From contig NZ_FORH01000001.1 of the NCBI RefSeq assembly GCF_900113955.1, forward strand, positions 736,395 through 800,394: DNA of 64,000 bases, in the 5' to 3' direction. This document shows positions 2,333 to 13,245 of this stretch, in pieces. This DNA is from Celeribacter neptunius. Lineage in GTDB: Bacteria > Pseudomonadota > Alphaproteobacteria > Rhodobacterales > Rhodobacteraceae. The position numbers and the translations under genes were made by a program. Within the stretch, counting starts at the first letter, position 1. Each line of letters begins with the position of its first letter. A model generated the notes under the pieces. It made no database searches, was not told the origin of the DNA, and saw nothing but the letters and a program-made list of their open reading frames with translations.

Positions 2333-2553
2333 GCCAGCTGTTTCTGGGTATAGTCGAGTACATAGACCCGGATCGCAGAGGCCAGCCCGCTGTCGACGCC
2401 CCTGAGTTCATCGATCTCGGCGGCCAGAACATTGATCGGAATGTCGCGCGCGCGGGCGATCTCGCGAAAGGCGCGCCAGAACGGTTCTTCCAAGGAAACC
2501 GAGGTGCGATGCCCGTGCAGGGTAAGCGAGCGTTTGACCGGGCGCGCGCTCAC
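2305..2553 (-). CDS. Ribbon-helix-helix domain protein (RHH_4 type)
   Basis: This is an 82-residue protein. The N-terminal KRSLTLHGHRTSVSLEEPFWRAFREIA pattern, read in two parts as a beta strand (RSLTLHGHRTSVSLE) and the first helix, is the hallmark of the small RHH_4 family common in alphaproteobacteria. Arc-type RHH proteins bind DNA as dimers through the beta strand, so a regulator or antitoxin-like role is possible, but no toxin partner is visible. The start codon overlaps the stop of the DUF4169 gene (ATGA), indicating translational coupling. In related genomes the pair commonly follows fumC; here two exported-protein genes lie between. Confidence 0.85.
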   Translation of the reverse strand: MSARPVKRSLTLHGHRTSVSLEEPFWRAFREIARARDIPINVLAAEIDELRGVDSGLASAIRVYVLDYTQKQLAQRNAQLGD

Positions 2554-2747
2554 TCCGCGTCGCCTTTTTCAGCGTCATCTTTCTTATGCGCGTCGAGTTC
2601 GGCCTTCGCCTTGGCTCTCTGCGCCTCTTCCAGAAGCTTCTGCGCCTTCGTGCGACCGAAGCTCACCGCATTCTCATCGCCGCGGGTGCGTTTCTCGGCC
2701 CGGGCCTTTTGTTTGCGGAACTGGTTCAGGTTGGTGACGTTGCTCAT
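2550..2747 (-). CDS. DUF4169 family protein
   Basis: This is a 65-residue, highly charged protein beginning MSNVTNLNQFRKQKARAEKR, the typical N-terminus of the DUF4169 family. The rest is Lys/Glu/Ala-rich and predicted helical or disordered (ending KKDDAEKGDAE). The start at 2747 is chosen over a longer reading because the conserved NLNQFRKQ segment sits directly after this Met. The 3' end overlaps the RHH gene by four bases, so the two are an operon. The function is unknown. Confidence 0.85.
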   Translation of the reverse strand: MSNVTNLNQFRKQKARAEKRTRGDENAVSFGRTKAQKLLEEAQRAKAKAELDAHKKDDAEKGDAE

Positions 2748-2904
2748 GGGCCAAGCATAGACCGCGGCAGAGAGCGTGGAAATAGCGGCGTTGCGGATTT
2801 TCAATCGAGAGATTGCTGCTCCTCACGGGGGGGGAGAGAAGAGAAAGGGCGAACTGTGCCGCCCCTTCGATCATGTTTTTGGGGGATTGAGTGTTCAGGA
2901 GCGC

Positions 2905-3228
2905 TCAGGAACGTTCGGGCGCATGGGCGCGCAGAACCTCTTCGTAGCGCTCCGTGGTGATCTCCGGATTGTGGCTTTGAACGCAGGCGACCATTTCCGG
3001 GCGCGCGCCGTCAGGGGCTGCAGTCTCTCCGGCCTTGAATCGGTCTTTCGCGGCGCGCAGCTCGCTGCGCGGCGGGCGGTTGTCACGGAAACATTGGGTC
3101 AGTTCTTGCGAGGTGATGCCGAGATCGGCGGCGATGGCGTCCACGTTGGGGCGCCCCTGAGCCACGGCGGGGACGGCGGTGCCAAGGGAGAGGGCGAAGA
3201 AGATCGGGGCTGCGAGATGAGATTTCAT
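2905..3228 (-). CDS. Exported hypothetical protein, 107 residues
   Basis: A clear Sec signal peptide (MKSHLAAPIFFALSLGTAVPAVAQ, cleavage probably after AVAQ) precedes a short mature domain with DAIAADLGITSQELTQCFRDN and EMVACVQSHNPEI. The two cysteines could form a disulfide in the periplasm. An ATG preceded by GGAGACC on the minus strand supports the start. It lies between the glycine-rich exported protein and DUF4169 on the same strand. I recognise no family with a known function. Confidence 0.7.
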   Translation of the reverse strand: MKSHLAAPIFFALSLGTAVPAVAQGRPNVDAIAADLGITSQELTQCFRDNRPPRSELRAAKDRFKAGETAAPDGARPEMVACVQSHNPEITTERYEEVLRAHAPERS

Positions 3229-3388
3229 TGGGGTCTCCTGTTGTTGTGGAACCTCTCATACGCAAGTCCCGAGGGGCTTCTGTCGCCGTTCTCGCGTCAC
3301 TTTAATGTGTCGGCTGTCCGGCGTAGGAAAATCGCCTTTTGGACGTAGATCCAAGGGAAGGAGAGGTGGGCAAAGCCGCCACCAAAGG

Positions 3389-3412
3389 AAAGGCGCCCTT
3401 GCGGGCGCCTTT
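3389..3412 (-). terminator. Intrinsic terminator after the glycine-rich protein gene
   Basis: A perfect 10-bp stem (AAAGGCGCCC pairing with GGGCGCCTTT) with a 4-base loop lies 31 bases beyond the stop codon of the minus-strand gene ending at 3443. It is followed on that strand by a short T-rich tract (TTTCCTTT). Confidence 0.75.
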
Positions 3413-3442
3413 GTTGCTTTACAGGTTTCCCGGATCTTGCGA

Positions 3443-10169: not shown

Positions 10170-10508
10170 AGTGCAGGTTTCTGTTGCCAGGTACCTGCGA
10201 ACCCCGCCTTACGCTGCTAGGCGAAAGGGCTTAGATTTCGATATTTCGCACAGCTTACGCTGCGAGAGCCATCGGAGCTTTGTTGTCGTTTGCAACTAGC
10301 TTAAGTGAACCGATAACGGTGGTATCTCACCGAGACAAAGCAAACCCCTTTAGACGTCCGTCGATCCTATTTCGTCCCCATGATCCAATCTCTTGCCGAT
10401 CTCAAACGAAGATCGAAGAGGGGTATTTGGTGGAGACGCCGGGTACCGCCCCCGGGTCCGATCCGCTTATTACGAGCGCGTTTATGTCCATAGTCCGGCG
10501 AACCGGAC
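10170..10508 (-). ncRNA. ssrA: Transfer-messenger RNA, circularly permuted two-piece type
   Basis: Read on the minus strand, the acceptor piece comes first (about 10508-10428). It contains a GTCCGG-TTCG-CCGGAC hairpin, the T-arm region CCCGGGGGCGGTACCCGG and an encoded 3' CCA at 10430-10428. After a spacer of about 48 bases the coding piece starts at 10379 with GGGGACGAAATAGGATCGAC, the counterpart of the 5' end of ordinary tmRNA. Its GGGGACG pairs over 7 bp with CGTCTCC of the acceptor piece. The tag frame at 10293-10255 encodes ANDNKAPMALAA and a TAA stop. Hairpins near 10200-10230 and at 10173-10198 close the coding piece. This permuted arrangement is known in alphaproteobacteria. Exact ends are estimates. 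Confidence 0.93.
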
Positions 10509-10514
10509 AAAGCA

Positions 10515-10543
10515 TATATAGGCAAGCGGGCCAGGGCGTTCAA
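10515..10543 (-). promoter_or_regulatory. Sigma-70 type promoter of ssrA
   Basis: On the minus strand TTGAAC (10543-10538), a 17-base spacer and TATATA (10520-10515) precede the predicted 5' end of the acceptor piece at about 10508. Both boxes are close to consensus. Confidence 0.75.
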
Positions 10544-10615
10544 GGGGGATCGGTCTGCGGACGAGAGCGCGGGGCCTGTCCCGCGACAGCGTCGCTATCG
10601 CGCTGAAAAACATGG

Positions 10616-10660
10616 GGTAAGGTTTTACGCAGGTAAGGTTTCCCTTAGGTAAGCGTTACC
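10616..10660 (+). repeat. Three direct repeats at exact 16-bp period
   Basis: GGTAAGGTTT starts at 10616 and 10632, and GGTAAG at 10648. The third copy also forms an inverted repeat with TTACC (10656-10660). The array lies between the divergent ssrA promoter and the peptide/radical SAM cassette and looks like a cooperative protein-binding array. Confidence 0.6.
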
Positions 10661-10709
10661 GGTATAGGCGAATCCCAGGACCCGTGTTTTGCTGATTGCG
10701 CAGCTTGCC

Positions 10710-10724
10710 GTTGCAAGTTGCAAC
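10710..10724 (+). promoter_or_regulatory. Perfect inverted repeat upstream of the peptide gene
   Basis: GTTGCAA-G-TTGCAAC is a perfect 7-1-7 palindrome ending 28 bases before the start codon at 10753. It falls in the spacer of a tentative promoter (TTGCCG at 10705, TATCAG at 10729), the position expected for a repressor site. Confidence 0.5.
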
Positions 10725-10752
10725 TTTGTATCAGTAACCAGTGAGGTATAAA

Positions 10753-11004
10753 ATGCCGCGTAAAATTTCCAACCCCTATGCCGCCGTGAAAACCACGATG
10801 ATCGGTCTTCCGAAACTCGAGGACTCGGATCTTGACCTTCTGGCCGACGATCCGAATGCCTTTTTTGCGGAACCGGGCAATCGGGCCAAGCTGTTCGGCA
10901 TGCCTGCCGACAAGCTGAAGCTGACGCTGGCCGAATACGGTCTGCGCAAAGGGGTCGATCAGGCCGCGATGATCAAGAGCGTCATCACCGAGATCGATTG
11001 GTAA
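10753..11004 (+). CDS. 83-residue peptide encoded next to a radical SAM enzyme, candidate modified-peptide precursor
   Basis: The frame has good high-GC codon use. The start at 10753 is preceded by GTGAGG; a GTG four codons upstream is less likely. The peptide has no signal sequence or membrane segment and no cysteine. The basic N-terminus MPRKISNPYAAVKTTM is followed by an acidic segment LEDSDLDLLADDPNAFF, a KLFGMPADKLKLTLAEYGL helix-like stretch, and a C-terminus VITEIDW ending in the only tryptophan. The radical SAM gene begins 39 bases downstream with no terminator between. That pairing is typical of ribosomally made, post-translationally modified peptides, but no known precursor family was recognised. 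It could also be a small partner or substrate-carrier protein. Confidence 0.7.
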   Translation: MPRKISNPYAAVKTTMIGLPKLEDSDLDLLADDPNAFFAEPGNRAKLFGMPADKLKLTLAEYGLRKGVDQAAMIKSVITEIDW

Positions 11005-11043
11005 GCCTCCGGGCTTGTCATCCTGTCTTTGTGATCCTGCAAA

Positions 11044-12132
11044 ATGACTGTCTCTTGTGAGCAGGTCAGCAGATATGGCGAGCACATCGCCATATCTGTC
11101 ACCAATTCCTGCCCCCTCCAATGTGCACATTGCATTTCCGGATCGGCCCCGGACACCGCCCGTGGGGCGTCGGGGCTGATCGAGGCCTTCGACGCGTTGC
11201 TGGCGCGCTGGCCGATCATCAACCATGTCACCTTCACCGGTGGCGAACCGTTTCATCATCCCGAGGAACTGGCCGAATTTGCCGCCCGCGCCAAGGCACG
11301 CGGCGTGCGCTACGGCGTGATCACCGGGGCGTTCTGGGGCAAATCCGAACGTTCCTGCGATCGCTATCTCAAGGCCGTGCCCGATCTCGCCACGATGACC
11401 GTGAGCACGGATCTCTATCACCAGCAATTCGTCACCCATCGCCATGTTCTCAATGTGGTGAAAGCCGCGCGCAAACGCGGCATCCATGTCAAGGTGCGCT
11501 TCACCCATGCCGATCCGATGCCGGAGGCCGAGCGCGCCGTCGAGGCGGCGCTGAAGGCCGATCTCCGGCCCGAGGAGCTGGAATACGCGCCCTTGCAGAA
11601 ATACGGCCGGGCGGTGGAGCAGGGGATCGGGCGCAGCTATGACCGCTGGTCGCCGCAGCCGCGCGAGACCAAATACGGCATCTGCCCCTCGACCGGACCG
11701 CATATCTTCGAGAATGGCCGGGTCATGCCGTGCTGTAACACCATCGTTTCGCTGCGCGACACGGATATTCCGCTCGATTTCGGCAATGCGATCACGGAAG
11801 GCGTGCCAAAGGTACAGGCGAACCGGGCGCAGAACACCTTCTGGCTGGCGATCAAGGTGCTGGGGTTTGACTGGCTGAAAGACCGGCTGAGCGAACTCAA
11901 CCCCGCCTATGCCGAGTATGCGCCGATCAACGCCTGCGATTTCTGTTTTGATGGCTGCAAGCCCGGCGGCATCCGCGACGATATCGCCCGGCTGATGGCG
12001 GATCCTTCGCTGGCGCTTTACGTCCATTCCGTGGCCGCCGAGGCCCTGGGAGAGATGCCGGATATTGCCCTGCTCAGTGGCTTTGCCGCGCAAATTCGCA
12101 CTGGTCGGGCCGAGTCTGGGATCAGGCTCTGA
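11044..12132 (+). CDS. Radical SAM protein with SPASM-like C-terminal cysteines
   Basis: The protein has 362 residues. The 4Fe-4S/SAM motif CPLQCAHC places cysteines at residues 23, 27 and 30, followed by the SAM-contacting FTGGEPF near residue 64. The C-terminal third carries further cysteines at about 214, 230, 231, 298, 301 and 305 (YGICPSTGPH, VMPCCN, ACDFCFDGCKPGG). This layout matches a SPASM or twitch auxiliary-cluster domain. Such enzymes commonly install carbon-carbon, thioether or other radical modifications on peptides. No clear ribosome site precedes the ATG at 11044, which suggests coupling to the peptide gene 39 bases upstream. A hairpin terminator follows at 12150. No transporter or protease is adjacent. 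Confidence 0.88.
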   Translation: MTVSCEQVSRYGEHIAISVTNSCPLQCAHCISGSAPDTARGASGLIEAFDALLARWPIINHVTFTGGEPFHHPEELAEFAARAKARGVRYGVITGAFWGKSERSCDRYLKAVPDLATMTVSTDLYHQQFVTHRHVLNVVKAARKRGIHVKVRFTHADPMPEAERAVEAALKADLRPEELEYAPLQKYGRAVEQGIGRSYDRWSPQPRETKYGICPSTGPHIFENGRVMPCCNTIVSLRDTDIPLDFGNAITEGVPKVQANRAQNTFWLAIKVLGFDWLKDRLSELNPAYAEYAPINACDFCFDGCKPGGIRDDIARLMADPSLALYVHSVAAEALGEMPDIALLSGFAAQIRTGRAESGIRL

Positions 12133-12149
12133 AGGGGGCTCAAACGAGA

Positions 12150-12176
12150 CTGCCGCCCCCGATCCGGGAGCGGCAG
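12150..12176 (+). terminator. Hairpin terminator after the radical SAM gene
   Basis: CTGCCGC pairs with GCGGCAG and, after one mismatch, CCCG with CGGG around a 3-base loop, followed by a T-rich region ending CTTCTTT. It lies 17 bases past the stop codon. Confidence 0.6.
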
Positions 12177-12204
12177 ATCAAGTGTCTTCTTTAATCAGAG
12201 TGGC

Positions 12205-13245
12205 TTAGAAGCCGGCTTTGATCTTTTCGAACTCTTCGGATTGTTTGGTCCGGAGCTCCACCGACATCGGCAGCTGCGCCAGGATCGGGGCGTCGATCGG
12301 CTCGAGCCCGCCGGCGACCAGAGCCTCTTCGCCCAGGGTGGCGAGGCCTTCGGTGTTGGAAATGCCGTAGCCGGCATCCATCAGCACGGCGGCGTTGGAG
12401 GCATCGAGGAAGCCATTGATGTAATCATAGGCCTTGTCCTCGGAGCCGGGACCGTCTTTCAGGTTCACATAGCCGCAGAGCCAGAGCGAGGAGCCTTCGG
12501 TGGCCTGGCGCTCGAAGCCTATCGGGAAACCTTCGTCGGCGAGCGTCGGATAGGTCTCGTTCCAGGCCCAGGCGATCAGCACCTCACCGGTGGCCATCAG
12601 CTGCGCCAGCTCGGCCGGGTCGGTCCAATAGGTGCGCAGGTTCGGATGCACTTCGCGCAGCCAGTTGGACGCCGCTTCGAATTGCGCGTCGGTGGCGGTG
12701 GTCCAGTCGGTGGTGCCGGTGGCGAGATAGGCCAGCGCATAGGCATCGTCGACATTGTCGGGCAGGGTCATGCGGCCCGCGTATTTCGGGTCCTTGTAGA
12801 CCTGCAGGGTCTTCACATCCTCGACCGGCACCTCATCGGCATTATAGGCCGTGGCGGTGGAGCCGAAGTCGGTGGGGATGAAATAGGCGCTGTCGGAACC
12901 GACGTCAGCCCCCAGAAGATTGCTGTCGAGCTTGGAATATTCGGTGATTTTCGAGGTATCCCAGGGCTCGATGATGCCGCTTTCTTCCCATTTCTTCACC
13001 GACCCGGCGCAGACGTGGCTGACATCGGCCTTGAAGCCGGAGACGAGTTTTTGCAGCGCCTCGTCCTCTTCGCCGAAAAAGGCAAAGGACGGCACATCAC
13101 CGTTTTTCTCGGCATATTTGGTGTGGAAGGCCGGATCTTCGAAACCGGAATAATCGAACACCAGAAGCTCGGCGTCTTCGGCGAAAGCGGCGGCCGCCAG
13201 CACGGACAGCGCGGCGCCGCCCAAAAGGGTTTTAAGAGCGTTCAT
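12205..13245 (-). CDS. Periplasmic solute-binding protein, spermidine/putrescine type
   Basis: This 346-residue ABC-type binding protein has a signal peptide (MNALKTLLGGAALSVLAAAAF, cleavage after FAE). The mature part has the bilobal layout of the PotD/PotF family, with LLVFDYSGFEDPAF, YFIPTDFGSTATAYNADEV and LIAWAWNETYPTLADEGFP regions. Start chosen at 13245, preceded by GGGAGACGA. No permease or ATPase gene is adjacent, so it either uses a transporter encoded elsewhere or serves chemosensing. Polyamine specificity is inferred from family resemblance. Confidence 0.85.
   Translation of the reverse strand: MNALKTLLGGAALSVLAAAAFAEDAELLVFDYSGFEDPAFHTKYAEKNGDVPSFAFFGEEDEALQKLVSGFKADVSHVCAGSVKKWEESGIIEPWDTSKITEYSKLDSNLLGADVGSDSAYFIPTDFGSTATAYNADEVPVEDVKTLQVYKDPKYAGRMTLPDNVDDAYALAYLATGTTDWTTATDAQFEAASNWLREVHPNLRTYWTDPAELAQLMATGEVLIAWAWNETYPTLADEGFPIGFERQATEGSSLWLCGYVNLKDGPGSEDKAYDYINGFLDASNAAVLMDAGYGISNTEGLATLGEEALVAGGLEPIDAPILAQLPMSVELRTKQSEEFEKIKAGF

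Follow-up and report, generated by a model that had tools for sequence, protein, structure and literature searches.

Genes and features at the locus

The window, a stretch of 64,000 nucleotides from Celeribacter neptunius (contig NZ_FORH01000001.1, positions 736,395 to 800,394), carries a two-gene cassette between ssrA and a solute-binding protein gene. The features of this region are as follows.

10170-10547, minus strand: ssrA (tmRNA), flanking the cassette
10753-11004, plus strand: small-protein ORF of 83 codons (83 aa), putative precursor (substrate)
10972-11001, plus strand: IKSVITEIDW, the Ile/Val/Thr-rich C-terminal stretch of the small protein (residues 74-83), proposed epimerisation site
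10999-11020, plus strand: hairpin across the peptide stop codon and the intergenic gap, possible attenuator
11044-12132, plus strand: EpeE/YydG-like radical SAM enzyme of 362 aa, putative peptide epimerase
11110-11133, plus strand: CPLQCAHC, residues 23-30 of the enzyme (C23/C27/C30), its three cysteines shared by all 13 aligned enzymes
11731-11736, plus strand: C230-C231 pair, with C231 at the position of EpeE C223 and present in 12 of 13 enzymes, proposed hydrogen-atom donor
11935-11958, plus strand: C298, C301 and C305, which together with C214 and C230 may ligate an auxiliary Fe-S cluster
12150-12176, no strand assigned: GC-rich hairpin, scoring as terminator-like on the minus strand, where the enzyme and solute-binding genes converge
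from 12205, minus strand: solute-binding protein gene (PF13416), converging on the enzyme gene

The open reading frames bore out the layout given in the preliminary description, namely a cysteine-free gene of 83 codons, a gap of 39 bases, and a radical SAM enzyme gene encoding CPLQCAHC and six further C-terminal cysteines. The sole tryptophan of the small protein is its last residue (W83). As had also been proposed, the small gene belongs to no recognised family, since no model matched it in Pfam and NCBIfam (E <= 1) or in PHROGs and PADLOC (E <= 0.1). The GC contents at the three codon positions were 0.60/0.39/0.72 in the small ORF, 0.64/0.48/0.77 in the enzyme gene and 0.61/0.43/0.79 in the next gene. 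This enzyme-like pattern, together with a homologue in the equivalent place in Litchfieldella (see below), supports reading the 83-codon frame as a real gene. Its product was predicted to be helical at low confidence (pLDDT 56), and the fold model was rejected for structural use because of this poor quality.

The stretch containing the first hairpin (10985-11043) folded with a z of -3.55, and 0 of 200 shuffles were as good. The second hairpin had been taken for a terminator of the enzyme gene; it does exist downstream of that gene, but it scores as terminator-like on the minus strand. It more likely belongs to the solute-binding gene, because of this score and because relatives without the cassette show, by eye, a similar GC-rich hairpin in the equivalent place.

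Genomic site of the cassette

The solute-binding gene was present in 14 of the 20 genomes of the genus (E <= 1e-60), and among the 13 other than the window's own, ssrA lay within the fetched stretch in 11 and was absent from it in 2. The cassette is missing from this site in most sister genomes: in 8 of the 11 genomes with both anchors, 64-129 bp separate the aligned gene ends, which leaves no room for it (1642-1708 bp in the window), and in the remaining 3 the gap of 815-856 bp holds other open frames. The spacer thus looks like a spot of gene uptake, given the open frames in these three genomes (L032, L040 and L044). The simplest reading is that the window's lineage gained the cassette, which is not foreign in base composition (GC by codon position as above; window GC 0.63). 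Direct repeats, as signs of a mobile element, were sought within 10400-12350, and none was convincing. The spacer frames in the three genomes are 239-270 codons long, and one of them is short-chain-dehydrogenase-like by eye.

No protease, dedicated peptide exporter, ABC ATPase or permease was found among the seven flanking proteins of the window that were scanned. They include a chromate transporter, an ABC solute-binding protein and an MFS transporter, all encoded on the opposite strand. A gene for SspB (Pfam PF04386; 7505-7996, minus strand), the adaptor for ssrA-tagged proteins, lies 2.2 kb from ssrA.

Remote relationship of the enzyme to EpeE

Four Pfam families matched the enzyme, including Radical_SAM (3e-12), Fer4_12 (1e-6) and the SPASM domain PF13186, the last below threshold (15.2 bits; gathering cut-off 21.5). 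By eye, the enzyme has the C-X10-G-X4-C arrangement of the SPASM motif (C214, G225, C230). The top NCBIfam family was TIGR04078, the YydG peptide epimerase (66.3 bits over residues 15-286; runner-up 27); as the curated cut-off of this family is 300 bits, the enzyme is a relative of YydG and not a member. No PoyD family was among the best 25 of 50 NCBIfam families. A sequence search of the PDB listed three distinct YydG/EpeE sequences first (2e-14 to 5e-13), followed by another protein at 5e-5. A 13-row enzyme profile, which itself includes an annotated YydG, again placed EpeE/YydG at the top (3e-83; next 1e-10).

The predicted structure agreed with these searches. Using a model built by ColabFold/AF2 from ten sequences (pLDDT 80) as the query of a fold search, nine EpeE chains led the results (E 5e-15 to 8e-14; TM 0.66-0.70 on the query; identity 18-19%), and DesII followed at 6e-8, so that the enzyme is predicted to have the EpeE fold. 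Judged from its sequence, it is a remote relative of EpeE/YydG, the epipeptide epimerase of Bacillus. Epimerisation is therefore the reaction to be expected, the nearest characterised relative being a peptide epimerase. Identity as a phage or defence gene was also considered; the matches covered the radical SAM core only (PHROG 3e-9; PADLOC pVip 3e-7), and this reading was rejected because EpeE matches better and over most of the protein.

The six further C-terminal cysteines are C214, C230, C231, C298, C301 and C305, and the enzyme also has C5 and C105. Besides C23, C27 and C30, the invariant residues in the 13 aligned enzymes are G66, G67, S121, H126, C214, C230, C298 and C301; C305 is not invariant. 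C231 aligned with the residue that is Ala in the PDB entries of the C223A variant (8ai3-8ai5). PMC8326336 describes Cys223 as the proposed hydrogen donor in EpeE, C-alpha hydrogen abstraction at Val36 and Ile44, and two [4Fe-4S] clusters in the enzyme; it also reports that the peptide breaks when Cys223 is mutated. The acidic residue D210 of EpeE, which is changed in PDB 8ai6, has no counterpart, as it aligned with G218; the Litchfieldella enzyme likewise has Gly at this position, with Asp one residue earlier.

A homologous gene pair in Litchfieldella

In Litchfieldella qijiaojingensis (genome G663, loci L005/L009), an enzyme of 31% identity is preceded, 10 bases upstream, by a homologous 76-aa ORF, and the gene order is the same. 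The alignment of the 76-aa and 83-aa peptides scored 66, while shuffled sequences averaged 24.1 (sd 4.2) and 0 of 5000 shuffles reached the score in any of four settings. The 76-aa ORF also ranked first among the 125 ORFs of that locus against the window peptide. BLASTP between the two peptides gave E 0.033, which is weaker than the shuffle test. No Pfam or NCBIfam model matched the Litchfieldella peptide.

The similarity spans residues 17 to 81 and thus extends beyond the C-terminus alone. Near the peptide end, VDQAAMIK--SVITEI stands opposite LDQVALVKVTKIVVEI of Litchfieldella, and residues 74-81 stand opposite VKVTKIVVEI with a gap of 2 residues. The Litchfieldella peptide has no counterpart of the first 16 residues, of YGL or of the final D-W, and it contains no Trp. 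Trp83 and YGL, which had been put forward as key targets, are hence missing from the sole homologous peptide and are unlikely to be essential; the third suggestion, KLK, is not preserved as a motif.

The genome samples searched for the enzyme overlap one another. In the window's family 1 of 295 genomes had it (E <= 1e-30) and in its genus 1 of 20 (E <= 1e-6), in both cases the window's own; in the phylum it was present in 2 of 398 (E <= 1e-12), namely the window's own genome and that of Litchfieldella. With a two-row profile, 1 of 385 genomes of the window's class (its own) had a match. For Litchfieldella the values were 1 of 151 genomes in the family (G663 itself) and 3 of 369 in the class (G663 included). 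Co-occurrence of the pair among family relatives is not demonstrable, because a single genome of the 295 has the enzyme. Apart from the window's own genome, the peptide search in these 295 genomes gave a single weak hit (E 0.004), which falls within an open frame of 697 aa. No match was obtained for the peptide among plasmids or for the enzyme among phage records.

Remote relatives of the enzyme

A search by peptide words with the single enzyme sequence recovered no relatives in genome contigs or viral contigs. The two-row enzyme alignment recovered 21 loci in genome contigs and none in viral contigs, and five distant matches to the enzyme were obtained among plasmids. We compared 14 loci: the window, eight from genome contigs (L009-L016), three from plasmids (L006-L008) and two from the sample of the Litchfieldella class (L047 and L048). 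Outside this comparison are 13 of the 21 loci (L017-L029), which have short matches to the N-terminal core, the plasmid matches H2 and H4, and L002 and L004. The hosts of the remote relatives are Proteobacteria, Geobacteraceae, Chloroflexota, Bacteroidales and, for one plasmid, a haloarchaeon.

At 10 of the 14 loci (the window, L006-L013 and L016), the enzyme is directly preceded on its strand by a gene or ORF of 51-190 aa, and no other gene was recognised between the two; apart from annotated genes, these small genes are mechanical ORFs. The other four loci count against the pattern: L014 shows no clear small gene but an ABC-transporter-like one, L015 starts close to the edge of its contig, the 57-aa ORF of L047 is two genes away from the enzyme, and a transposase-like gene lies upstream at L048. 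This frequency and the Litchfieldella recurrence support the original proposal that the peptide and the radical SAM enzyme form a functional pair, and the closest enzyme relative does have a neighbouring peptide gene, the absence of which had been named as grounds for abandoning it.

The upstream peptides are diverse. Those of L012, L013 and L008 have Val/Ala-rich ends, and 3 of the 8 peptides scanned gave matches, all below the cut-off, to RiPP leaders of the NHLP clan (L013 4e-7, L011 1e-4, L012 0.004). Compared with seven precursors other than that of Litchfieldella, the window peptide showed no similarity above chance (best z 2.1), and the Litchfieldella peptide reached a z of 3.1 with one of them (L013; 14 of 2000 shuffles). 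TIGR04078 was the best family for all 10 enzyme relatives scanned singly. A tree of 15 enzymes grouped those of the window and Litchfieldella with two from Syntrophomonadaceae (97/96), on long branches that carry a risk of false joins. The peptide upstream in Syntrophomonadaceae has no detectable similarity to the window peptide and no V/I-rich end, and this comparison of sequences is evidence against one uniform picture.

Proposed reaction and alternatives

It is highly probable that the enzyme modifies the peptide, whatever the reaction. A reasonably probable reading is that the cassette is a stand-alone pair of substrate and epimerase, which would convert Val/Ile near the peptide C-terminus from L to D. 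SAM would be cleaved at the C23/C27/C30 cluster, and the resulting 5'-deoxyadenosyl radical would abstract the C-alpha hydrogen of Val/Ile in IKSVITEIDW, those of residues 74-81 being the candidates. C231 would then donate a hydrogen from the opposite face to give D-residues, assisted by an auxiliary Fe-S cluster on C214, C230, C298 and C301. The hairpin over the peptide stop codon may keep the level of the enzyme below that of the peptide. Against the epimerase reading stand the low identity to EpeE and a score far below the YydG cut-off, Gly in place of D210, the dissimilarity of the peptide to Macrococcus YydF, the lack of a protease or dedicated peptide exporter among the seven neighbours scanned, the divergent Syntrophomonadaceae peptide, and the recovery of just a single homologous pair, whose enzymes share 31% identity and whose peptides reach only E 0.033 in BLASTP.

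A different radical reaction on the peptide, such as a C-C or C-O cross-link, an oxidation or a backbone change, despite the EpeE-like fold, is unlikely. The identity with EpeE is just 18-19%, Gly replaces D210, and several unrelated modifications by radical SAM RiPP enzymes are described in PMC8326336; the cysteine equivalent to C223 is nevertheless retained. Two such reactions can be judged from the peptides: a thioether on a peptide cysteine is excluded, as the window peptide contains no Cys, and the lack of Trp in the Litchfieldella peptide makes a Trp-based cross-link unlikely.

The small protein might instead serve the enzyme as a permanent partner, be it adaptor, activator or chaperone, with something else as the real substrate, which we regard as quite improbable. 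The alignment of the homologous peptides over residues 17-81, beyond one end, and the helical prediction (at pLDDT 56) would suit a partner. Identity with a known soluble partner protein had been named beforehand as the result that would overturn a peptide substrate; neither the window peptide nor that of Litchfieldella matches a Pfam or NCBIfam model, yet the two are alignable over most of their length. Precursor-like V/A-rich peptides before some remote enzyme relatives also speak against a partner role. That the two genes are chance neighbours is hardly credible and largely refuted: although the homologous pair occurs in just two genomes of the samples searched, each gene of one pair has its homologue in the other, and the gene order is shared across two different classes.

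Returning to the substrate/epimerase pair, the cassette resembles the EpeE system (YydG of B. subtilis; TIGR04078; PDB 8ai1-8ai6) in the predicted fold, the CX3CX2C radical SAM motif, the S-x-D-x-Y-H region, the C-terminal cysteine pattern including the C223 equivalent, the short peptide gene upstream, and a hairpin between the peptide and enzyme genes, the epeX terminator lying between epeX and epeE as described in PMC12871923. It differs in the low identity, in reaching 66 of the 300 bits needed and in having no D210 equivalent; the enzyme has 362 aa and Macrococcus YydG 320. The window pair has, among the seven flanking proteins scanned, no adjacent EpeP-type protease or EpeAB-type transporter as in epeXEPAB. 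Like EpeX/YydF, the window peptide is short, Cys-free (as is Macrococcus YydF), encoded before the enzyme and provided with Val/Ile near the C-terminus, but it has 83 aa against 51 and no detectable similarity to Macrococcus YydF, the one sequence compared (z -0.3). Because its score lies below the family cut-off and its precursor, operon and position 210 do not match those of EpeE, the cassette falls outside the epipeptide family; it probably works like the EpeE system, yet is no epipeptide system. PMC8326336 describes EpeE-type epimerases in connection with epipeptides from Bacillus, Enterococcus, Streptococcus and Staphylococcus. A literature search, most subscription papers excepted, returned nothing on Rhodobacterales radical SAM epimerase RiPPs or alphaproteobacterial epipeptides.

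Proteusins with PoyD-type epimerases (TIGR04517) share radical epimerisation, which is a proposal for the window pair. PMC8326336 describes this reaction as acting on Val and Ile, e.g. in PlpA, and PoyD-type enzymes as having the radical SAM cluster only. Unlike proteusins, the window peptide has no match to an NHLP/nitrile-hydratase-like leader (Pfam, NCBIfam, E <= 1). Sactipeptides and ranthipeptides differ in that their precursors require Cys, and the window peptide has none.

The product and biological role of the cassette can be suggested tentatively. As no protease or dedicated peptide exporter was found among the scanned neighbours of either pair, an intracellular product is possible, and the two small proteins align over about 65 residues and not as a conserved leader with a free core. 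For these reasons the product might be no cleaved peptide antibiotic but a small protein of some 80 residues that stays intact inside the cell and has C-terminal D-residues, although we hold this to be doubtful. As a two-gene unit that is easily expressed, the cassette could show whether irreversible D-residue formation serves an intracellular small protein. Together, the pair and its remote relatives suggest that EpeE-like enzymes form a broader group, for the most part unnamed, whose peptides differ greatly.

Other observations at the loci of relatives

In Litchfieldella, cobalamin-type genes lie upstream of the pair (by eye), and the three downstream proteins that were scanned have no Pfam match. 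At L047 (440-3738), an EpeE-like enzyme (TIGR04078 best, 76 bits) lies within an apparent lasso-peptide-type cluster, which by eye comprises an asparagine-synthetase-like end, the 57-aa ORF, a kinase-like protein and a 91-aa PqqD-like protein. One Chloroflexota MAG contributed both L016 and L015; by eye, these contigs have two tandem similar precursor-like peptides (L016, 4312-4942), a pair of EpeE-like enzymes, and radical SAM proteins of the B12 type. On plasmid pALVIN01 of Allochromatium vinosum (L006), the CRISPR accessory genes csm6 and csx16 are neighbours of the distant EpeE-like enzyme and of a second radical SAM protein. The haloarchaeal plasmid of Halocatena salina (L008, 2410-4008) encodes a 177-aa protein with a Val/Ala-rich end, followed by an EpeE-like enzyme. 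At L048, the frame downstream of the distant EpeE-like enzyme (reverse strand, 2456-3430) shows, by eye, a leader-like region and then a long Val/Ala-rich stretch.
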